A DNA stretch of 64,000 bases from Ilumatobacteraceae bacterium (lineage in GTDB: Bacteria; Actinomycetota; Acidimicrobiia; Acidimicrobiales; Ilumatobacteraceae), in NCBI GenBank assembly GCA_021299715.1, contig JAJTEL010000004.1, positions 62,001 through 126,000 of the forward strand, in the 5' to 3' direction. Each line of letters starts with the position of its first letter. The first letter of the stretch is position 1. Positions 13,023-55,424 of the stretch are shown piece after piece. Position numbers and translations under genes: made by a program. Below the pieces are notes generated by a model. That model did not search any database. It was not told the DNA's origin and worked only from the letters and a program-made list of their open reading frames with translations.

Positions 13023-13312
13023 GGCTCTCCTCGCTGTGATCCCTGGTTGGTTTCACTCTCGGTCGGTGTCTGTATGACGCCGAGTCATGACGGGAAGTTC
13101 CCGCAACTTCAGTCAAGCACGAATTTCTGCCGCGCGTGCCTCGACTTGGTAAAGGTTCGTTAAAAATCTGTTTTATCCACAGGGGTGAGAAAAATAACCA
13201 ATGAAATCGGGACAAAATCACATCAAAACTGAACTGTTTTTTGCCCGATACACTTCTGTCACACTGAATTTCGATACTTGTAGTGCGCAAGTCTCAGCCA
13301 ATTGGAGGCACC
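13023..13312. other. Divergent intergenic region upstream of a WhiB gene and a small hypothetical gene
   Basis: The 290 bases contain no convincing coding frame. The middle (about 13150-13200) is A/T-rich, which fits two divergent promoters, but I could not fix -10/-35 boxes or operators. A GGAGG at 13304-13308 is the ribosome site of the following gene. Confidence 0.5.
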
Positions 13313-13579
13313 ATGTCAGACATCCAGACTCAGGAAGCGCCAAAGGCTCACGCTCGCATTGTGTATCTCGGCCCGGTCTCTCCTCATTGGGAGGTCTACG
13401 GCGATTACGGCGACCAAACCCTGGTCGAAGAGTTCCGTGCCCGCGTTCTGGCACGTCTCGTTCTGTTGCCTCGTGACGACCCACAATTCCGCCGCAACAT
13501 GGCTCGCATCGTGCGCGATGCCGAGCGCGAGCTCATCTCCATTGAATGGGACATGGGTGACCCGAACTACGAAATCTAA
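13313..13579 (+). CDS. Conserved-looking small protein, unknown function
   Basis: An 88-residue soluble protein. The first ~17 residues are polar; then VYLGPVSPHWEVYGDYG is followed by an Arg-rich helical part (LVEEFRARVLARLVLLP and DPQFRRNMARIVRDAERE) and an acidic end (EWDMGDPNYEI). I do not recognise the family. The start is set by GGAGG seven bases before the ATG. It has its own strong terminator, so it is probably monocistronic and well expressed. Confidence 0.6.
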   Translation: MSDIQTQEAPKAHARIVYLGPVSPHWEVYGDYGDQTLVEEFRARVLARLVLLPRDDPQFRRNMARIVRDAERELISIEWDMGDPNYEI

Positions 13580-13596
13580 AGACTCTTGTTCTTTGC

Positions 13597-13632
13597 AAAG
13601 TGCCACTCCGTAAGGGGTGGCACTTTCTGTTT
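13597..13632 (+). terminator. Strong rho-independent terminator
   Basis: A 13-bp stem (arms 13597-13609 and 13614-13626, one G-T pair) with loop GTAA, followed by CTGTTT. It ends the small gene at 13313 and insulates it from the pst promoter that starts immediately after. Confidence 0.85.
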
Positions 13633-13693
13633 ACCTTCCGTTTACCTTAGGAATTTCCTCCGTTCACCTTCCGTTACCTACCGTTTCAGGTGA
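13629..13693 (+). promoter_or_regulatory. Tandem PHO-box array upstream of pstS
   Basis: Consecutive 11-bp units: GTTTACCTTCC (13629), GTTTACCTTAG (13640), GAATTTCCTCC (13651), GTTCACCTTCC (13662), then GTTACCTACC (13673, ten bases) and GTTTCAGGTGA (13683). The unit matches the GTTCACC-type 11-bp direct repeat bound by actinobacterial PhoP/RegX3-type regulators. It ends about 40 bases before the pstS start and fits activation of the pst operon by the two-component system encoded downstream. Confidence 0.8.
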
Positions 13694-13731
13694 ACCGAAT
13701 GCACATAGTTCGGCATCTCTGAGGAGTATCA

Positions 13732-14682
13732 ATGGCACGTCATCTCATGTCCCCCCGCCGCGTGGCCGTCGTTGCAGTTGCAGTACTGGCCCTTGCTTCA
13801 TGCGGAGGTGGATCTTCTACATCAAGCGATCTCACCGGCAACATTCTCATCGATGGTTCCAGCACTGTTGCACCGTTAATGACATTGCTCGCTGAGGACT
13901 TTCAAGAAGACAACAGCGGCGTTCGGGTCACAGTAGGAACATCGGGAACTGGTGGCGGTTTTGAAAAGTTCTGCGCAGGCGAAACAGACATTGCTAATGC
14001 ATCTCGCGAAATCAAAGAATCTGAAATCGAAACATGCAAAGCAAATGGAATTGAGTTCCTCGAAGTCATCATTGCAAACGACGCACTGTCAGTGGTTGTC
14101 AACAACGACAACACATGGGCGAAGTGTCTCACTGTTGATCAACTGAAAAAGATGTGGGGCCCAGACGCCGAAGGAAAAGTATCCAACTGGAATCAGGTCG
14201 ATGCATCGTTTCCTGACCAATCCCTGAATCTCTTTGGCGCGGGTACAGACTCCGGCACATTCGACTACTTCACGAAAGAAATCAATGGCGAAGAAGGATC
14301 TAGCCGTACCGACTACAACCCCAGCGAAGACGACAACGTCACCGTCAAGGGTGTTGAGGGCGACAAGGGTGCTCTCGGATACTTTGGCTTCTCATACTTG
14401 GAAGAGAACATCACAAAAGTGAAGGCTCTTGAAGTTGATGGTGGCAAGGGTTGTGTCGCACCATCACTTGAGAATGTTCAGAATGGTACGTACACGCCTT
14501 TGTCTCGTCCGTTGTACGCATACGTCAGCTTGAAGGGCGCACAACGCGAAGAAGTGAAAGCCTTCTTCGAGTTCGTTGGTGAAAACCTTGATTCGCTGAC
14601 AGAAGAGGCTTTGTTCATCCCATTGAATGACGACCAGAAGGCCATCGAGAATAAGAATCTCGAAGCCATCGCTGGCGCGTAA
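13732..14682 (+). CDS. pstS: Phosphate ABC transporter substrate-binding lipoprotein
   Basis: A 316-residue secreted lipoprotein: signal peptide with lipobox LASC (Cys24), Ser/Gly linker, then the PstS fold. Phosphate-contact motifs are IDGSSTVAPLM, TVGTSGTGGGFEKFCAGETDI and GAGTDSGTFDYF. It captures inorganic phosphate outside the membrane for PstCA. First gene of pstSCAB-phoU-phoR-regX3, preceded by the PHO-box array; a GAGGAG lies about ten bases before the ATG. Eighteen bases separate it from pstC. Confidence 0.96.
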   Translation: MARHLMSPRRVAVVAVAVLALASCGGGSSTSSDLTGNILIDGSSTVAPLMTLLAEDFQEDNSGVRVTVGTSGTGGGFEKFCAGETDIANASREIKESEIETCKANGIEFLEVIIANDALSVVVNNDNTWAKCLTVDQLKKMWGPDAEGKVSNWNQVDASFPDQSLNLFGAGTDSGTFDYFTKEINGEEGSSRTDYNPSEDDNVTVKGVEGDKGALGYFGFSYLEENITKVKALEVDGGKGCVAPSLENVQNGTYTPLSRPLYAYVSLKGAQREEVKAFFEFVGENLDSLTEEALFIPLNDDQKAIENKNLEAIAGA

Positions 14683-46404: not shown

Positions 46405-47457
46405 TTACGCGTCAAACGCCAGAACACGACCGTGGACAACGACTCCCACGGTGGATCCGACATCGGGCAAAAGTCGGGCATGTAAACGCACGGTGGCCAT
46501 AGTTCCGTCGGCAAATCGAACATCAACGGTGCCGTCGTGTCCGAAGTACCGAGTGGCAACAACGTCACCCGTGACTCGTGCCCCAGAAGAATCAGCATTC
46601 ACAATTTCGAATTGTTCGGGTCTAATCATGACCTGCACAGACCCACTTGCATGTTCGCGAAGTAATTCAATGTCTCCAAATGATGTGTTCACGGTGTTGC
46701 CAATGGCGCCCACAGTTCCGCGCACAGACACTGTTTCACCAATGAATTCAGCAACTTCGGGAGTAGTGGGTGCGTGGTACACACTGACAGGATCTGAGAA
46801 CTGCGCGATATTTCCCTTCAGCAGAACCGCAACTGAATCGGCGGTAGAGAGCGCTTCGTCTTGGTCGTGGGTCACCCACACAGCAGTGACTTGTTCGGCT
46901 CGCAGAATGGTGACCACTTGGTCTCGAAGCGATTCCCGTAATCCTGCATCGAGTGCAGAGAACGGTTCATCAAGCAACACAAGAGTGGGACGTGTTGCGA
47001 GTGCGCGTGCAAGCGCCACACGTTGTTGCATTCCGCCGGAAAGTTCCGACGGCATGAGGGAACCAGATGTTGGAAGTCCAACAAGTTCAAGCATCTCGGC
47101 AACTCGTGTTTTTGTTTCGCGTGATTTGCGCTGTGTAAGACCAAATGCAACGTTTTGCGCAACGGTGAGATGCGGAAACAAGGCGCCTTCTTGTGGAACC
47201 AATGCAACACCACGTTGGTGTGGCGGTACCCATGAGTTTTCACTGGCAACGCAGACACCATCGATAGAGACTGAGCCGTGTTGTGGTCGTTCAAGGCCAG
47301 CGATGATGCGAAGAAGTGTGGTCTTTCCTCCACCCGATGGTCCGAGTAGGGCAGTGATGCTTCCGTGTTGAGCAGTGAGGTTGATGGAGTTCAGAACGTG
47401 CGTGGAGCCAAAACGATGGGACACACCGTGCAGTTCAAGAGCAGGTGACGATGTCAT
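46405..47457 (-). CDS. fbpC: Ferric iron ABC transporter ATP-binding protein
   Basis: A 350-residue ATPase of the Fbp/Pot/Mal group: Walker A GPSGGGKTT, signature LSGGMQQRVALA, Walker B LVLLDEPFSALDAG, H-loop VTHDQDEALS, and a C-terminal TOBE-like domain (about 230-350). Coupled to the permease by a four-base overlap (ATGA). Energises import of Fe3+. Confidence 0.88.
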   Translation of the reverse strand: MTSSPALELHGVSHRFGSTHVLNSINLTAQHGSITALLGPSGGGKTTLLRIIAGLERPQHGSVSIDGVCVASENSWVPPHQRGVALVPQEGALFPHLTVAQNVAFGLTQRKSRETKTRVAEMLELVGLPTSGSLMPSELSGGMQQRVALARALATRPTLVLLDEPFSALDAGLRESLRDQVVTILRAEQVTAVWVTHDQDEALSTADSVAVLLKGNIAQFSDPVSVYHAPTTPEVAEFIGETVSVRGTVGAIGNTVNTSFGDIELLREHASGSVQVMIRPEQFEIVNADSSGARVTGDVVATRYFGHDGTVDVRFADGTMATVRLHARLLPDVGSTVGVVVHGRVLAFDA

Positions 47458-48980
47458 GATCCACCATCTTTCATGGAAGACAGTGTGCCAAGAAGCGCAG
47501 TGGGAAGCGCTGCCAATATCAACATTGCCAGAGCAAATGGGCCAACTGCGGCGTAGTCAGAGATGGTGCTGAAGTCCCAAATCTTGGTAGACAACGTGTT
47601 CATTCCGGTGGGTCGTAACAGCAGCGTGACGGGTAGTTCCTTTACCGCAGCCAGCATGGTTAATGCCGAACCTGCAAGTACACCAGGCAACGCAATGGGA
47701 AGAGTGACACGCAACAAAGTCTGGAAAGAGTTTGTGCCAAGGCTGTGCGCTACCTCTTCCAACGACACCGGCGTTTTCTCGAGTGCAGCGCGAAGCGATG
47801 CCACCATCACCGGGAGAAAGATGATGACTTGGCCAAAGACCAAGAGCGGAAACTCTTGATACCACGGACGAGCAACGCGAATACCCACATAGACAACAGA
47901 GATGGCAACCACGATTCCAGGTAATGCGTGCGTGATGTATGTGAGGCGTTCGGGAAGGCGAGCAATAATGCCCTTGCCGCGAACCGCGCACCACGTAACG
48001 GGCAAAGCAAGCAACAAGGTGACAATTGCTGTGGCACTGCCGTTAATGAATGATTGCCCAGTTGCTTTCCATACGGTTGCCCAATCTGTTGCGCGCGTAG
48101 TGCTTCGTCCAAGCCATGACACAACATTCACTACGGGAACACCAACGGCGGGAACAAGAACAAACGACGTACCCACAAGCACAACCACGCGTGCACGCAG
48201 AGAAAGTTGTGAATGTCGTTGGCGCGCGGCATTAGATTTTCGTGCCGACGTGTCGTCTCCGCGCGCAAACGATTCAGCAAGCGTGAGAGCTAACGCCGCG
48301 GCAATGAGAACAAGTGACAAGGTGGCCGCACGCGTGGGATTAAATCCTGCTCGGTACGCCCCGTAAATCACCCATGTGAAGACTTCGTGGCGCATTGCTG
48401 CAACCGCGCCGAAGTCGCTGAGCGCGTAGAGAGCCACAAGTAAGCCGCCCGATGCAATGGGTCGACGCAGTTGTGGAAGAAGAACTTCCCGAAGAATGTC
48501 AAATGATGATCGCCCCATTGTTCGTGCAATGTCTTCGTGCACGGGGTCTAGCCGTTTCATGGCTGCTGCTACCGGCAACATGACATACGGATAGCAGGCA
48601 AACGTCAGAACTATGAACGCTCCTGTGAACCCTGAAATGCCAGGTAACCACGAGATCCAGGCAAAGGCAGCCAAATACGACGGAATTGCTAGTGGTAACG
48701 AGAACGCAATGGTGAGAACTGTGCGTCCACGTATTCCAGACAATGTGGTGACCCATGCAGCGAAGATTCCAATCACAATGCTTGCAAGGGTGACGGCCGC
48801 AGTGAGAACTCCACTGCGCCAAATCAGTGTGAGAGTGCGTTGCTGAATCAGCTCGTCAGTAAAGACCTGAATTCCACGGGAGAGTGATTGTGTTCCGAGA
48901 TACCAGACCGGAACCAGCGACACAATGGCAGCAGCGAACGCAAGGCCCAGTACGGGGAATGTCGCTCGCGTTCGTTGCAT
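47454..48980 (-). CDS. fbpB: Ferric iron ABC transporter permease (two fused permease domains)
   Basis: A 508-residue protein with about 12 helices and two EAA coupling loops (HEDIARTMGRSSFDILREVLLPQLRRPIASG in the first half, LEEVAHSLGTNSFQTLLRVTLPIALPGVLAG in the second), the normal fused layout of FbpB/SfuB permeases. Located between the binding protein and the ATPase genes. Confidence 0.9.
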   Translation of the reverse strand: MQRTRATFPVLGLAFAAAIVSLVPVWYLGTQSLSRGIQVFTDELIQQRTLTLIWRSGVLTAAVTLASIVIGIFAAWVTTLSGIRGRTVLTIAFSLPLAIPSYLAAFAWISWLPGISGFTGAFIVLTFACYPYVMLPVAAAMKRLDPVHEDIARTMGRSSFDILREVLLPQLRRPIASGGLLVALYALSDFGAVAAMRHEVFTWVIYGAYRAGFNPTRAATLSLVLIAAALALTLAESFARGDDTSARKSNAARQRHSQLSLRARVVVLVGTSFVLVPAVGVPVVNVVSWLGRSTTRATDWATVWKATGQSFINGSATAIVTLLLALPVTWCAVRGKGIIARLPERLTYITHALPGIVVAISVVYVGIRVARPWYQEFPLLVFGQVIIFLPVMVASLRAALEKTPVSLEEVAHSLGTNSFQTLLRVTLPIALPGVLAGSALTMLAAVKELPVTLLLRPTGMNTLSTKIWDFSTISDYAAVGPFALAMLILAALPTALLGTLSSMKDGGS

Positions 48981-49002
48981 GCTTACGTTCTTTTATGTTT
49001 GC

Positions 49003-50034
49003 TCACTTGGTGAGCAAACCAACTTTCTGAAGAAGTTCTTGGGTGAGATCTAATGACTTCAAGTCGGACAAGTTGATTGATGGCGCTTGCAGATCAGCAA
49101 ACGGGGGGAGACCGTCGGCTTGTGCGGCACCAGAAGTGAGGATGTACTCCCAGGTCTTTTTGCGGAAGTACTCCGCAGCGGTATCGCTCTGAAGAAAGTC
49201 AACAAACTTCTGCGCGGCCGACGAGTGTTTGGCGTTTGCCAAGATGCCAACACCTGCAACGTTCACTAGTCCACCAACGTCACCTGCGGCCATGAATTGG
49301 TTCTTTGCAACAACAGCATCTGCACCTTCGGCTGCAATCTTTTCTAGCAAGTAATAGTGGTTTACTAATCCAAGCGATACCTCTCCGGTATTTACTGCAT
49401 CGCGGACAGCACTGTTCTTTTCGTATGCAACTGGCTTGTTCTGCGCAAATGCCGTCAACCATTTTTCTGCGCCATCTTCACCGCGTAACACACGTAGTGC
49501 AGTAACAAACGATTGCCAGGAAGCATTCGTGGGTGCAAATCCAATCTTGCCTGACCATTGTGCGTCGAGCAGACCGTCAATTGTGTTTGGTGGCGTGGGG
49601 GCAAGTGTGGGGTTGTACACAACAACTCGAACGCGGCCAGTGACACCAACCCACTTACGGTTTTCTGAGGAGAATTTCGAGTCAACCAAAGAGAGTGTCT
49701 CCGTTGGTAACTCTGCAAGGTTGTCTTCCACGGCGCCGAGTGCACCGGCATCTTGTGAGAAGAACACATCGGCGGGGCTGGCAGATCCTTCGGTCAACAA
49801 AAGTGCTGCCATCTCGCCACTATCGCCATAACGAGCGTCCACACTGATTCCAGTTTCTTCGGTGAACGCTGCAAATAGATCTTTCACAAGTTCTTCGCTA
49901 CGGCCGCTGTACACAGTGACCGTGGTGTCTTCAGATACGGCCGTGGTATCGGATGAAGAACTTGACGAGCCACACGCCGTCAGCACGAACGACAAAGAGG
50001 CAACGGCAGCGATAAAGCGTTGAGATGTTTTCAT
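49003..50034 (-). CDS. fbpA: Ferric iron-binding lipoprotein
   Basis: A 343-residue secreted lipoprotein with lipobox LTAC (Cys21) and a Ser-rich linker. The periplasmic-binding fold contains VYSGRSEEL, FFSQDAGALGAV and the adjacent tyrosines in LVNHYYLLEK that coordinate Fe3+ in FbpA/FutA proteins. The start is backed by AAAGGAGG. Upstream are two iron-box-like palindromes, so expression is probably iron-repressed. Confidence 0.9.
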   Translation of the reverse strand: MKTSQRFIAAVASLSFVLTACGSSSSSSDTTAVSEDTTVTVYSGRSEELVKDLFAAFTEETGISVDARYGDSGEMAALLLTEGSASPADVFFSQDAGALGAVEDNLAELPTETLSLVDSKFSSENRKWVGVTGRVRVVVYNPTLAPTPPNTIDGLLDAQWSGKIGFAPTNASWQSFVTALRVLRGEDGAEKWLTAFAQNKPVAYEKNSAVRDAVNTGEVSLGLVNHYYLLEKIAAEGADAVVAKNQFMAAGDVGGLVNVAGVGILANAKHSSAAQKFVDFLQSDTAAEYFRKKTWEYILTSGAAQADGLPPFADLQAPSINLSDLKSLDLTQELLQKVGLLTK

Positions 50035-51860: not shown

Positions 51861-51945
51861 TCCAGACCTCGGTAAAATGGAGAAAACCCTTGCGGCATAA
51901 GGGGTTCAGAACTTTGTAGCACCCTTGTGGTGAGATACGAGTCCA

Positions 51946-53175
51946 ATGCCAGATACCTCGTCATCATCGTCGCCCGATCTCTCCACAACAACTGAACTGC
52001 CGCGTCAGTTCACCCTGTTCTTGAAGAACTCCGACTTTGGTGAGGTTGTCATGGCGGCGGTGCGTCATGCTCAGGACTCAATTGCAGACAGCACGTTCAC
52101 TGTGCAGTTCACTCCCACTCACTGCATGTGGTGGTTTCGTCGTCAGAACGTCAACATGTATCTCTCCACTGCAGATGATGGCGAAGAACGTCCACACGCC
52201 GGCGTCCTCACACTTCCTGTCCACTTCTTCGATTCCATTCGTCAGCTCCTACTTGATGACGAAGAAATTGACGTTGAATTGCAGATCGATCTCAACGCAA
52301 ACACCATCACGTACTCCTCGCATGATTGCACCTTTTCGTCAACTCTTCCTCAACAACTTGGTACAACGCCTCCAGCGCTTGCCGAACGTTCAACTCGCAT
52401 CATCGTGAACGCACCGCAAATTGCCCAGATCGGGCCGTTCTTGCGTTCGGTTCCTATCGCGCTGCCCGAAGACGAAGATGGTTCGCCCTACTCAGGTCAT
52501 CTGCCGTTTGTCACGTTCACCTATGACGGTGTGAAACTCACGGTTACTCGCGATTGGTCACGTCTAGACGGCCCAACTCTCAGCATCACTGTTCCTGCTG
52601 GTGGCGACTATCGCGGTTCGTTCTCCGTGTTTGCACCAGTTTTTGCGCAAGAGATCTATCTGTCCGATACGTACACGCAAGGTGCATTGACATTTGCGTT
52701 CAATGACGAGCAGCCCAATATCTGTCATGTCTCAAGCCCACGCTTCGGCATGGTGGTAGAACTCGGCTACGAACATGTTCTGCAATATCGCACCCGAATT
52801 GAAGTGGCGTTGCACATGGCCGACGCCGAATTCGAAGTTGCTCGCGACACTCGTCGCGGCTGGAATCCCACCGTTGTTATAAATGCAGGCGCACGTGAGG
52901 TCACCGCAACAATCGTGCCGGCCCAAGATCAACGTGGCGTCTACATCCGCCTCGATACTGAAATTGCCGCAGACGTTCAGTGGTCTACAGAACTGGCCAC
53001 AGAGATCAACTCGTGGAACGACCAATGGCCAACAGTGAAGTTGGTGTTTGTCAACAACGCAGTTCGCGCTATTGCCGATCTTCCTGCTGCCGGACTCGAT
53101 GGCATTGCTGACGTAGTAGTCGACCTGGTCGCAAAGGCCCAGATCGTCAACGATCTCATCGGGGCAGTTTTGTAA
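51946..53175 (+). CDS. Uncharacterised protein A: two clamp-like domains plus YbjN-like domain
   Basis: A 409-residue soluble acidic protein with no family I can name from sequence alone. I read three parts: residues ~20-137 (FTLFLKNSDFGEVVMAAVRHAQ at the start, then LTLPVHFFDSIRQLLLDDEEIDVELQI), ~149-274 (RIIVNAPQIAQIGPFL, TVTRDWSRLDGP, FAPVFAQEIYLSD, CHVSSPRFGMVVEL), and ~283-409 (long helix, beta hairpins, then LATEINSWNDQWPTVKLVFV and a C-terminal helix). The first two have the strand-helix order and size of sliding-clamp (DnaN) domains; the third resembles the YbjN/CesT chaperone-like fold. The protein at 53820 has the same layout and shares a D-W-x-R motif (D203-W204-x-R206 here), so the two are paralogues. 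Fold assignments are inference. 85 bases after ilvD. Confidence 0.7.
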   Translation: MPDTSSSSSPDLSTTTELPRQFTLFLKNSDFGEVVMAAVRHAQDSIADSTFTVQFTPTHCMWWFRRQNVNMYLSTADDGEERPHAGVLTLPVHFFDSIRQLLLDDEEIDVELQIDLNANTITYSSHDCTFSSTLPQQLGTTPPALAERSTRIIVNAPQIAQIGPFLRSVPIALPEDEDGSPYSGHLPFVTFTYDGVKLTVTRDWSRLDGPTLSITVPAGGDYRGSFSVFAPVFAQEIYLSDTYTQGALTFAFNDEQPNICHVSSPRFGMVVELGYEHVLQYRTRIEVALHMADAEFEVARDTRRGWNPTVVINAGAREVTATIVPAQDQRGVYIRLDTEIAADVQWSTELATEINSWNDQWPTVKLVFVNNAVRAIADLPAAGLDGIADVVVDLVAKAQIVNDLIGAVL

Positions 53176-53183
53176 TGGAACCT

Positions 53184-53199
53184 GCGAACAAATGTTCTA
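53184..53199 (+). promoter_or_regulatory. LexA (SOS)-type box
   Basis: CGAACAAATGTTCT at 53185-53198 matches the gram-positive LexA box CGAACRNRYGTTYC at 13 of 14 positions and contains the perfect GAAC-N4-GTTC palindrome. It lies just upstream of a plausible promoter for the genes at 53407-55424. A single short site can occur by chance. Confidence 0.5.
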
Positions 53200-53205
53200 A
53201 TAGGG

Positions 53206-53234
53206 TTGCAACGTCCCTAAATACCTGCCATACT
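53206..53234 (+). promoter_or_regulatory. Candidate promoter of the 53.4-55.4 kb genes
   Basis: TTGCAA (53206-53211), 17-base spacer, CATACT (53229-53234); each hexamer matches four of six consensus positions. Predicted start of transcription near 53241 would give a ~165-base leader containing the mini-ORF and a hairpin. Confidence 0.35.
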
Positions 53235-53279
53235 TCTCATCCCCCCAGACACAGCTCGCAATCAATGAAAGGAGTGCAG

Positions 53280-53318
53280 ATGTCCAAGAGACGGTTCATA
53301 GGCCAATCAACAATCTGA
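53280..53318 (+). CDS. 12-codon mini-ORF (possible leader peptide)
   Basis: MSKRRFIGQSTI followed by TGA, with a near-perfect AAAGGAG seven bases before the ATG. It is 88 bases upstream of the next real gene, followed by a hairpin. The ribosome site is stronger than those of most genes here, so it is probably translated; whether it regulates or is a short functional peptide is unknown. Confidence 0.45.
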   Translation: MSKRRFIGQSTI

Positions 53319-53337
53319 CCCTTCGGGCACCTACCTG

Positions 53338-53358
53338 TCCGAAAAACCAGATTTCGGA
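53338..53358 (+). other. Hairpin between the mini-ORF and protein B gene
   Basis: Perfect 7-bp stem TCCGAAA / TTTCGGA with a 7-base loop, no T run. Lies in the leader 35 bases before the ribosome site of the gene at 53407. Confidence 0.5.
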
Positions 53359-53406
53359 TTGTCCTATCCACACATCACAACCGTCCCTACAACAAGGAGC
53401 ATCTGC

Positions 53407-53823
53407 ATGTCCCATTCACCTTCCCCTTTTGGCGACGACTTCGGTCCGTCAGACGAATCTCTCATCGAGACATTCGTAGAAGTCGAACAGTTTGTTCTCG
53501 ACCTTGAACCCAAGGTTCGCGAAGTAAACCGTGTTCTCGTCCCACTGTTCGGCAAGTGTCCGTCATCAAAAGATGGCAGCTGGGCCTACATTGCAAAAGA
53601 CGATAACGACCAGTACTTCATTGCATTCGAATGTCTTCCTGTCGACAAGGCTTTCGGGCTCGTTGCTCGTTTGGCCGAGGTTCTTGCGCTTGTCGAAGAT
53701 GCAAACAGCCATGTGCGTGCTCGTGACAGCTACCAGCCAGACCTTGGTCACGTCATCGTCGGCGATGTTGCTCAGTTCAACGTTGTTCCCCACACTCACG
53801 TTCGTGTGGTGCGCAAGTCATGA
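53407..53823 (+). CDS. Uncharacterised protein B
   Basis: A 138-residue soluble acidic protein. Residues ~18-48 form a predicted helix (LIETFVEVEQFVLDLEPKVREVNRVLV), then SSKDGSWAYIAKDDNDQYFIAFECLP suggests a beta hairpin, a second helix (KAFGLVARLAEVLALVED) and a basic end. No family recognised. Start fixed by AAGGAG about nine bases before the ATG. Its stop overlaps the start of protein C (ATGA), so both are made together. Confidence 0.65.
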   Translation: MSHSPSPFGDDFGPSDESLIETFVEVEQFVLDLEPKVREVNRVLVPLFGKCPSSKDGSWAYIAKDDNDQYFIAFECLPVDKAFGLVARLAEVLALVEDANSHVRARDSYQPDLGHVIVGDVAQFNVVPHTHVRVVRKS

Positions 53824-55028
53824 TCCCGAACTTCGAAACCAACAAGTCCGATTGGACCATCCGCGTCACTATTGGCGAACTTATCGATGTCATGTCAGCG
53901 TTATCCATGATTGGGCGCTCCGGCGGAAACGGCGAGGCACACGTGTGGCTGACGAAAGTTCCGAAAGGTCCACGTTTGTGGATCATTCGCGAACGCATCA
54001 TCACCACATGGATCACTGCCGACGCAGAGTCCACCGACCCAACGTTTGCGTTGCCCATTCCCGATCGTTTCATTCCGCATCTCATTGAGGTGGCCTCGGG
54101 TAGTGGTGGTGCAGACCTCTTCTACAACGAAACGGAAGGCACCATCATTGGCCGCGGAACAGATCGTTACATCTCCACAGACCATCCAGACAATGTGGAA
54201 TTCACCGAAAAAGACATGCCGTACTTGGGCCGCATTCATGGTCATCACGAATCGCCTGCGGTCGCGGAAGTCTCGGTGAAAGACCTCACCTTGTTCACGG
54301 ACACGGTGCAGGACTTTCCACGTGACCCAACAGATGGTTCACGCGTGTTTCCATTCGTGCATGTGGCAATCGGCGATGGCCAGTTTGCGTGGACCATGGA
54401 CTGGCGGCGCTACAACGCAGGTCGCACAACAGGTTCAATTCCTGCCCGCACCAATGGTCATTCAACGTTCACGTTCTATCCGTACATCTTGGCGCGGTAC
54501 TTACGTTCACGAGACGATCACGAAGAAGCACGCATCTTTGTAGATGAACAGAACTCGGACTATGTGTTCATCACTGGCGACAAGTGGGGTATTCGCTGCT
54601 TGCTCGACCGTGAAGAACTTGCGCGTTGGAGCAGCGAGGTAAAGGCACAACTCGAGCGTGAAGGTTTTGAGGTGGAAGAAACCGAAGGGGAGCGCATTCC
54701 CGACTTCTATACGTTTACATTCGACAACCTTGAATGTTTCGCGTCGGTGCATTGCAAAGACGATGAACTCTCCGAGTACATCCGTCTCACTCATATTCTC
54801 ACCACCAATACCCCGGCCAATCGTGACGTTCTTGAAGAAATCAACAACATCAATGCAACGTTGTACGGAGCACGCCTGGTGTTACGCGATGGCGAAGTGC
54901 GCATCATCGTGGAATTCCCCGCCAAGGCCGTTACCGATATGGGGTCACACTTATCTGTGCTGAAAACCGCACTCGACCGTTGCAAGAACCTCACTGTGTT
55001 CTTGCCGCTTTTTTCCGATTCCCACTAA
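53820..55028 (+). CDS. Uncharacterised protein C: paralogue of protein A with clamp-like and YbjN-like parts
   Basis: A 402-residue soluble acidic protein with the same plan as the protein at 51946: residues ~11-131 (VTIGELIDVMSALSMIGRSG, PIPDRFIPHLIEVASGSGGADLFYNET), ~148-263 (VSVKDLTLFTDTVQDF, AIGDGQFAWTMDWRRYNAG, STFTFYPYILARYL, YVFITGDKWGIRCLLD) and ~270-398 (helix, hairpin, LEEINNINATLYGARLVLRDG and final helix). D194-W195-R196-R197 parallels D203-W204-S205-R206 of protein A and sits where sliding clamps have their ATDGHRL motif. The third part looks YbjN-like. Function unknown; clamp similarity is by eye and needs a profile or structure test. Confidence 0.68.
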   Translation: MIPNFETNKSDWTIRVTIGELIDVMSALSMIGRSGGNGEAHVWLTKVPKGPRLWIIRERIITTWITADAESTDPTFALPIPDRFIPHLIEVASGSGGADLFYNETEGTIIGRGTDRYISTDHPDNVEFTEKDMPYLGRIHGHHESPAVAEVSVKDLTLFTDTVQDFPRDPTDGSRVFPFVHVAIGDGQFAWTMDWRRYNAGRTTGSIPARTNGHSTFTFYPYILARYLRSRDDHEEARIFVDEQNSDYVFITGDKWGIRCLLDREELARWSSEVKAQLEREGFEVEETEGERIPDFYTFTFDNLECFASVHCKDDELSEYIRLTHILTTNTPANRDVLEEINNINATLYGARLVLRDGEVRIIVEFPAKAVTDMGSHLSVLKTALDRCKNLTVFLPLFSDSH

Positions 55029-55037
55029 GGAGGAACC

Positions 55038-55424
55038 ATGAAAACTTATGAAGCAGTAGAACAATTCGCAGCACTTGCACGCATGATTGCTGAAGGTGAC
55101 TGGGGCTATGCCGAGCCGTGGCAGGGGGCCGATGTAGTTGTTGTAGACGTTGCGCCTGCACCAACTCCTAACGCCTGGTTGCCCGACTACGAGTATGTGG
55201 TAACGCAATATGTTCGTGAGCTCAGTTGGGTTTTCGAACAAGCACGTGACGCAGTGAAAGATCACGACGGGTACGGCATGTTCAAAGAGGAGTTCTTTGG
55301 CCGCATGGGTGAAGCCGTTAATGCGTGTGGTTCAGATGTTCCCATCACGACGCATCTCAACGTTGCGTTATTTGCTGCACGCTTCTTTGTTGAAAGTGTT
55401 ATCGGAAGGTTCGATCACGAATGA
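55038..55424 (+). CDS. Uncharacterised protein D
   Basis: A 128-residue soluble protein, mostly helical (YEAVEQFAALARMIAEGDWG, YVVTQYVRELSWVFEQARDAVKD, TTHLNVALFAARFFVESVIGRF) with a VVVVDVAPAPTPNAW strand/loop near 33-46. No family recognised. A perfect TAAGGAGGA stands before the ATG, nine bases after protein C, so it belongs to the same transcript. Converges with the DUF3054 gene, overlapping by ten bases. Confidence 0.62.
   Translation: MKTYEAVEQFAALARMIAEGDWGYAEPWQGADVVVVDVAPAPTPNAWLPDYEYVVTQYVRELSWVFEQARDAVKDHDGYGMFKEEFFGRMGEAVNACGSDVPITTHLNVALFAARFFVESVIGRFDHE

Follow-up and report, generated by a model that had tools for sequence, protein, structure and literature searches.

The 64-kilobase window analysed here, a stretch of contig JAJTEL010000004.1 (GenBank assembly GCA_021299715.1), comes from a lake bacterium of the Ilumatobacteraceae and encodes two related clamp-like proteins, A and C, in the company of two small proteins, B and D. 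An interpretation made earlier from the letters alone (the sequence-only reading) had placed the four open reading frames (ORFs), an overlap of B and C by ATGA, and a start of D nine bases past the C stop and preceded by GGAGG; all of these details were confirmed. The genes are:

Gene A: 51946..53175, + strand, predicted double clamp-fold and TY-Chap1-like protein of 409 residues (ORF, model, Foldseek)
Gene B: 53407..53823, + strand, small partner protein of 138 residues with a flexible C-terminal tail
Gene C: 53820..55028, + strand, predicted double clamp-fold and TY-Chap1-like protein of 402 residues (ORF, model, Foldseek)
Gene D: 55038..55424, + strand, protein of 128 residues without recognised relatives

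When the window was compared with its nearest relative (locus L047), the ratio of nonsynonymous to synonymous substitution rates (dN/dS) was 0.12 for A, 0.05 for B, 0.055 for C and 0.029 for D, beside 0.019 for ilvD; the two A proteins are 94% identical. Because purifying selection acts on all four genes (0.029-0.12), A to D appear to be functional and, orthologues being present as well, to be more than chance ORFs.

Two predicted clamp folds and a chaperone-like domain

Judged by sequence, A and C are paralogues: BLASTP aligns residues 186-384 of A with 177-371 of C at 21% identity (E 3e-10), relatives of the two bridge nearly the whole protein length, and a genome search with either one finds the other. 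AlphaFold2 models were built from alignments of 17 rows each, the rows being the window proteins and relatives from related loci only. The mean predicted local distance difference test score was 83.7 for A and 83.8 for C, and the predicted template modelling (TM) score 0.78 and 0.73, respectively. The order of strands and helices is identical in both models, with two repeats of paired beta-alpha-beta-beta-beta halves followed by alpha-beta3-alpha-beta2-alpha, the last of which, in these whole-protein models, is the order of the TY-Chap1/YbjN superfamily fold. The predicted domains are:

A, clamp-like domain 1: 52006..52344, + strand, residues ~21-133 (model secondary structure; whole-model Foldseek)
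A, clamp-like domain 2: 52390..52764, + strand, residues ~149-273, with D-W-x-R at 203-206 (alignment, model, Foldseek)
A, TY-Chap1/YbjN-like domain: 52771..53172, + strand, residues ~276-409 (sub-threshold Pfam, model, hhalign)
C, clamp-like domain 1: 53856..54182, + strand, residues ~13-121 (model, Foldseek)
C, clamp-like domain 2: 54261..54605, + strand, residues ~148-262, with D-W-x-R at 194-197 (alignment, model, Foldseek)
C, TY-Chap1/YbjN-like domain: 54612..55025, + strand, residues ~265-402 (sub-threshold Pfam, hhalign)

Searched against the PDB with Foldseek, the C model gave 468 matches at E <= 0.001, and all 50 of the matches listed are titled sliding clamp, DnaN or PCNA, the best being 1vpk (E 1.5e-11, probability 1.00). 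Its TM-score, normalised by the chain, is 0.74 to 8vat_G, a 249-residue chain of an E. coli clamp entry that we read as the clamp itself; scores to PCNA chains are 0.58-0.64, and identity in the structural alignments is 7-15% among the matches listed. For the A model, 48 of the 50 matches listed are titled as clamps (best 6ap4_L, E 6.2e-12), the other two being 8xla_A ('Mismatch Repair Complex') and 5x06_A ('DNA replication regulation protein'). Against a viral library, phage beta clamps and viral PCNAs make up most of the named matches of the C model among the 50 listed, while some matches are unnamed or uncharacterised. The models, Foldseek and hhalign thus bear out what had been read from the letters of both proteins, namely a shared three-part layout with matching strand and helix order, in which two clamp-like domains precede a YbjN-like one.

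At the level of sequence no such likeness was found. Neither protein matches a Pfam clamp model, nor is there an NCBIfam, PADLOC or PHROGs match that gives a clamp; a 22-row A/C profile and phmmer retrieved no clamp chain from the PDB sequences, and hhalign against 12 DnaN proteins of relatives stayed below 4% probability. Since sequence searches returned no clamp, the clamp assignment is one of predicted structure, and the proposed derivation of A and C from DnaN finds no support in these searches. What A and C have in common with DnaN and PCNA is two consecutive predicted clamp folds in DnaN-like geometry; they differ in lacking sequence-profile similarity and, as a more diverged set, helix columns with 60% or more basic residues, and in carrying a TY-Chap-like domain where DnaN has its third clamp domain, which the models and hhalign indicate to be missing from both proteins.

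In Pfam, TY-Chap1 (PF22551) is reported for A at residues 331-384 (E 2.1e-4, 21.4 bits) and for C at E 0.0089 (16.1 bits), in each case under the cut-off of 27 bits, and YbjN for C at E 0.073, likewise sub-threshold; yet an alignment of domain 3 from A and C matches 20 actinobacterial TY-Chap1 domains by hhalign at 96.4% (E 1.2e-9). By profile comparison, then, domain 3 is TY-Chap1-like. YbjN and DR1245 are stand-alone domains, whereas in A and C the domain is fused behind two clamp folds. The likeness to the YbjN family and to DR1245 of Deinococcus, a TY/YbjN-like protein that partners DdrB according to the account in PMC3575483, lies in this domain of the TY-chaperone superfamily.

Residues W54, W195, G257, R322 and N345 (C numbering) are invariant across 22 aligned A and C sequences. 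W195 belongs to the D-W-x-R motif (C194-197, A203-206) that the sequence-only reading had pointed out at the same place in both proteins; the correspondence holds, with the Trp present in 22 of 22. By strand order, the motif presumably corresponds to the TDGxR turn of DnaN domain 2, a turn that in E. coli DnaN helps to form the peptide-binding pocket; the window genome's own DnaN has ATDGYRL. The analogy suggests that a peptide pocket may be kept in altered form in A and C. In the four clamp helices of the 22 sequences, no column reaches 60% Lys/Arg, whereas DnaN of relatives keeps basic residues such as R73 and R80; the DnaN sequences are, however, far closer to one another (median identity 0.48; A/C, 0.19). 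An argument on DNA binding from charge was dropped because the total isoelectric point does not separate A/C from DnaN. The analysis turned up no link to DNA or the replisome, nor, in this more diverged set, a clamp-helix column conserved as basic, and the role in replication or repair that had been put forward is not supported.

Partner B, distribution and genomic setting

By hand tally, 38 of the 43 genomes that have an A/C gene also have a small ORF immediately 5' of one, the 43 being 42 from the A/C searches plus G607, with L138 (G471), which is without an A/C gene, excluded. In five of the 38 (genus g10) B was assigned by position and size only, and no B-type ORF was found in G018, G037, G033, G607 or G263, the last looked at in one survey only. 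All survey counts include the window's own genome (G000); loci L047 to L055 were taken as genomes G023, G003, G030, G021, G009, G018, G017, G008 and G029, respectively, and each was counted once. In the genus of the window, B-type genes stand 5' of C-type genes and, in L048 and L050, also of A-type genes, L050 having two tandem B-A/C units; other genera have a small ORF at the same place. Nine B sequences of the genus match seven from six other genera (g10 left out) by hhalign at 95.9% (E 6e-9), and on this comparison B is a conserved family and not an orphan. B has no match in Pfam, NCBIfam, PADLOC or PHROGs, and hhalign against TY-Chap, the A/C domains and DnaN gave nothing; its core, guessed by inspection, would be alpha-beta-beta-alpha. 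The flexible tail of several B proteins has His/Arg at its terminus (for example THVRVVRK, SVHMVVPR, PHLGGRV), and the pocket of A/C is perhaps the docking site of this peptide.

D is a near-orphan: it has no match in Pfam, NCBIfam, PADLOC or PHROGs and, among 179 loci, its only matches belong to the window genome and to a single near relative (G023, the genome of L047). Because of this restriction the set A to D is not conserved as such, contrary to the co-occurrence expected of the four genes, and the stable unit is B plus A/C; the description of B and D as two small orphans nearly holds for D and fails for B. Where the window has D, L051 has a 263-residue SHOCT-domain protein (13258-14046) and G005 an NrtR regulator (L074, 10366-11106).

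C-type matches occur in 21 of 32 genomes of the same genus. A family sample gave 24 of 150 genomes in 6 of 27 genera, and profile searches found at least 8 of 298 genomes in an order sample and at least 4 of 396 in a phylum sample, these being lower bounds as up to six and four candidates per genome, respectively, were scored and many contigs of metagenome-assembled genomes (MAGs) are short. The named relatives are MAGs of Acidimicrobiaceae, Ilumatobacteraceae or Actinobacteria/Actinomycetota. In viral contigs, a search with A only yielded 41 pattern matches, none confirmed as relatives. In a tree of 49 A/C rows with many long branches, A forms one clade (100/100) and C does not, one C subset grouping with A (89/81); 'C' is for this reason a positional name and not a clean orthologous group. 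TY-Chap1 exceeds the Pfam cut-off in 20 actinobacterial proteins (20 of 296 genomes), with a double-clamp-like layout, by reading, in L095 only. In the distant L095/L136, from another actinobacterial family, what reads as a similar N-terminus precedes a TY-Chap1 domain that scores 60.7 bits and is thus over the cut-off of 27, and the A/C profile gives E 6e-7. Many of the over-cut-off proteins (L088-L106) were seen, without a tally, to end in ...GYL or similar, perhaps a docking peptide.

Most genus loci examined have the order ilvD, cassette and small membrane protein (DUF3054 in the window), beyond which we take there to be an inositol-phosphate-synthase-like gene and, further on, ilvB-ilvN-ilvC-like genes. 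The contents of this slot vary, from A alone through C with B to A-B-C and B-A-B-C, with extras such as D, the SHOCT protein or NrtR. With the nearest relative excluded, A is at ~31% identity while ilvD keeps 88-93%. Upstream of ilvD, at 46405-50034 on the - strand, the window carries an ABC transporter set (ATPase, permease and substrate-binding lipoprotein) that by reading looks like iron(III) uptake; in several relatives its place is presumably held by an FTR1-like gene (MGASFLITLREGLE...).

A short sequence precedes the cassette:

Conserved 25-base-pair element (TGnnnCACCC...): 51915..51939, + strand, directly upstream of A (13-locus matrix)

It is probably a leaderless promoter or operator. 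The matrix, made from 13 same-genus loci including the window site, scores this site at 23.9 against 12.3 for the next in the window. The element stands before the first cassette gene in all 13 loci; in most of them a few bases separate its end from the start codon, a spacing suggestive of leaderless transcription, and it lies farther upstream in G005, G014, G031 and G006. A degenerate pattern derived from these loci has 25 matches in 23 of the 32 genus genomes (reversed control, 2), of which 15 are at A/C loci, one follows ilvD at a contig end (G004) and nine are elsewhere. The pattern is not matched at the A/C locus of the A/C-positive genomes G002, G016, G020 and G028, nor is its strict form in G006. 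With nine of 25 matches elsewhere, the idea that the element is private to the A/C cassette was rejected. Four of the nine (G002, G010, G012, G013) lie 5' of a small gene, itself uncharacterised, with a nuclease-like gene running divergently from it; Pfam assigned the latter to PDDEXK_1 in both cases submitted (G010 and G012), and for this reason a small regulon shared with the cassette is possible.

Genes for ADP-ribose handling near A and C relatives

Section 3.8 of PMC9503650 predicts ADP-ribose systems centred on an ADP-ribosylglycohydrolase (ARG) that include TY-Chap1/2/3, Nudix or WYL repressors, R-P or HD phosphatases and vWA proteins, with TY-Chap1 as a predicted chaperone. A and C resemble these systems in their TY-Chap1-type domain, in rapid divergence and in variable modules, and some of their relatives share as companions ARG with a dual-specificity phosphatase (DSP), the NrtR Nudix repressor, HD phosphatase and ARG-vWA (PMC9503650). 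The contention that no system of this kind had been described is therefore not borne out, TY-Chap1 being already part of the published prediction. Neither a clamp fold nor a B-type partner nor a TY-Chap AAA protein appears in that section, and the word 'clamp' has 0 occurrences in the main text of the paper. The predicted TY-chaperone is present in A and C as domain 3 by profile-profile comparison, although sub-threshold in Pfam. Since ARG and the NrtR repressor were sought in the 64 kb around the cassette and not found there (WYL was not searched for), the window locus is not filed as an ARG system. Searches of the open-licence PMC literature brought up no account of clamp folds joined to TY-Chap, and this absence is not proof because the search was limited to that body of work.

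At least one of NrtR, ARG and HD lies in the A/C locus stretch of 11 of the 43 genomes: G005, G014, G031 (same genus); G161, G040, G122, G132, G152 (g10); G123 (g11); and G294 and G321 (another family). NrtR is there in all of these but G123 and G321 (9 of 43), ARG in G014, G031, G123 and G294 (4 of 43), and HD in G014, G031, G294 and G321 (4 of 43). Pfam agreed for every neighbour submitted. It reported ARG with dual-specificity phosphatase, Nudix with the NrtR winged helix, and HD_4 in G014 and G031; NrtR in G005, G161, G040, G294, G122 and G132; ARG with phosphatase in G123; ARG with vWA in G294; and HD_4 in G321. Two assignments, NrtR in G152 and HD in G294, come from in-house profiles. 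Scanned over whole genomes, the 42 A/C genomes contain the NrtR winged helix in 18 (20 places) and ARG in 20 (25 places), with the NrtR genes of g10 and G294 falling below the threshold of that scan. In the window genome, contig C10 (L144, 7715-11478) has a divergent pair of NrtR and ARG-phosphatase genes followed by an AAA ATPase, the ARG being the single match of this genome. This ATPase matches the profile of the AAA protein found beside A/C in four g10 genomes and G096, and the N-terminus of that family matches TY-Chap1 by hhalign at 96.8%.

Several observations weigh against tying A and C to ADP-ribose. In 32 of the 43 genomes the stretch read, on contigs that are in part short, has no NrtR, ARG or HD, and the window has none of these and no AAA of these families. 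The neighbour profiles were built from genes first seen beside A/C, and the NrtR scan covered A/C-positive genomes only. The association within the genus speaks for the link, ARG being present in 15 of the 21 genomes with A/C and in 2 of the 11 without (Fisher p 0.008), but these genomes are related and often incomplete, so that the points are not independent, and among the positives G003 is a fragment. No such association is seen outside the genus (5 of 21 A/C-positive against 4 of 16 A/C-negative genomes, Fisher p 1.0). All seven g2 genomes have neither ARG nor NrtR at the thresholds used, and the five g10 genomes have no ARG in the whole-genome scan. Nor does the conserved position beside ilvD amount to a defence island. 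A comparison of the NrtR-ARG intergenic region with the sequence upstream of A or B in eight pairs gave no convincing shared operator: three pairs share 9-mers only, one (G005) an 11-mer, and four no word of nine or more. The interpretation draws throughout on sequence and predicted structure. The word CCCTT-N5-ATAAGGG, noticed by eye both between NrtR and ARG in G000 and 5' of A, was not used because it was not seen upstream of A in the other genomes compared.

Readings of the cassette

The explanation we favour, tentatively and at a probability of roughly 0.37, is that A and C are clamp-fold scaffolds bearing a TY-type chaperone domain which, with partner B, would be accessory to ADP-ribose handling, the binding of clients being likelier than the encircling of DNA. 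Because some relatives adjoin genes for ADP-ribose removal, A and C may serve ADP-ribosylated molecules rather than DNA copying. The two would be copies of one scaffold in which a TY-type chaperone domain is fused behind a pair of sliding-clamp domains, and with B they may form a client-binding complex. The family would then act as an accessory of ADP-ribose- or NAD (nicotinamide adenine dinucleotide)-responsive systems made up of ARG, the NrtR Nudix repressor, phosphatases (DSP, HD) and the TY-Chap AAA ATPase. The trigger would be the ADP-ribosylation of proteins or other molecules; the TY-Chap domain and the clamp pocket may keep hold of clients, or of the tails of partners, during removal and processing of the modification by ARG and the phosphatases. 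In the window genome the putative enzyme part (NrtR-ARG-AAA) sits at another locus, A-B-C lying between ilvD and the inositol-phosphate-synthase-like gene. A and C are not filed as members of DnaN; the claim is that they may work like a TY chaperone on a clamp scaffold. Of the sequence-only interpretation, the clamp domains and the YbjN-like domain are retained, while descent from DnaN, a replication or repair role and the lack of any described system are not.

An alternative is a housekeeping chaperone and scaffold pair of the Acidimicrobiia without any ADP-ribose function, the NrtR and ARG neighbours being lineage-specific coincidences. The ilvD and inositol-phosphate-synthase-like setting of most genus loci examined fits such a pair, as do the lack of ARG association outside the genus and the g2 genomes, which have A/C and B, in 6 of 7 cases beside a thiolase-like gene, without ARG or NrtR. 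Recurrence of the NrtR, ARG and HD links across several genera, a second family (G294, G321) included, together with rapid divergence and patchy presence in the genus and family samples, speaks against it, and we regard it as doubtful. A clamp that does encircle DNA, as a PCNA-like trimer of six clamp domains, perhaps in A-C hetero-rings, could tether the chaperone to DNA and so serve in repair or in recovering modified DNA. The two-domain geometry resembles that of DnaN and PCNA, TY/YbjN-like proteins can partner DNA-repair proteins, as reported for DR1245 with DdrB (PMC3575483), and the promoter-like element also stands 5' of the small gene divergent from the nuclease gene in four genomes. 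Such a clamp is nevertheless unlikely, given the absence of a conserved basic column from the clamp helices, where DnaN keeps its own in a less diverged set, and of any clamp-loader-like gene of the AAA family from the window, in which other AAA types were not searched for.

A combination of these ideas, in which a two-domain PCNA-like ring, possibly an A-C hetero-ring, with its chaperone domains and B would load at ADP-ribosylated DNA or protein and coordinate removal of the modification, we consider rather improbable. A still poorer case can be made for a clamp mimic acting in conflict, whose clamp part would bind clamp-interacting phage or host proteins and whose TY domain would hold them, so blocking replication of an invader: the clamp fold, fast divergence and the phage beta clamps among the structural matches are in keeping with it, but no defence-family match and no viral relative of A (sought with A only) were found, the position in the core chromosome is stable, and the mechanism is pure inference. 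Hardly credible is a divergent DnaN paralogue working in ordinary replication, for which the fold alone speaks, since the genome has its own DnaN, the sequence-profile link and the third clamp domain are missing, and A/C was not found in 11 of the 32 genus genomes.

If the ring at ADP-ribosylated sites were real, it would be a bacterial sliding-clamp scaffold outside replication. Should A and C instead be the client-binding scaffolds that we favour, bacteria would have recruited the sliding-clamp fold for a protein scaffold that is joined to a chaperone and linked to the handling of ADP-ribose, and the predicted ARG systems would gain a new component together with a testable partner, B. The question thereby raised is whether the clamp architecture can serve without DNA.

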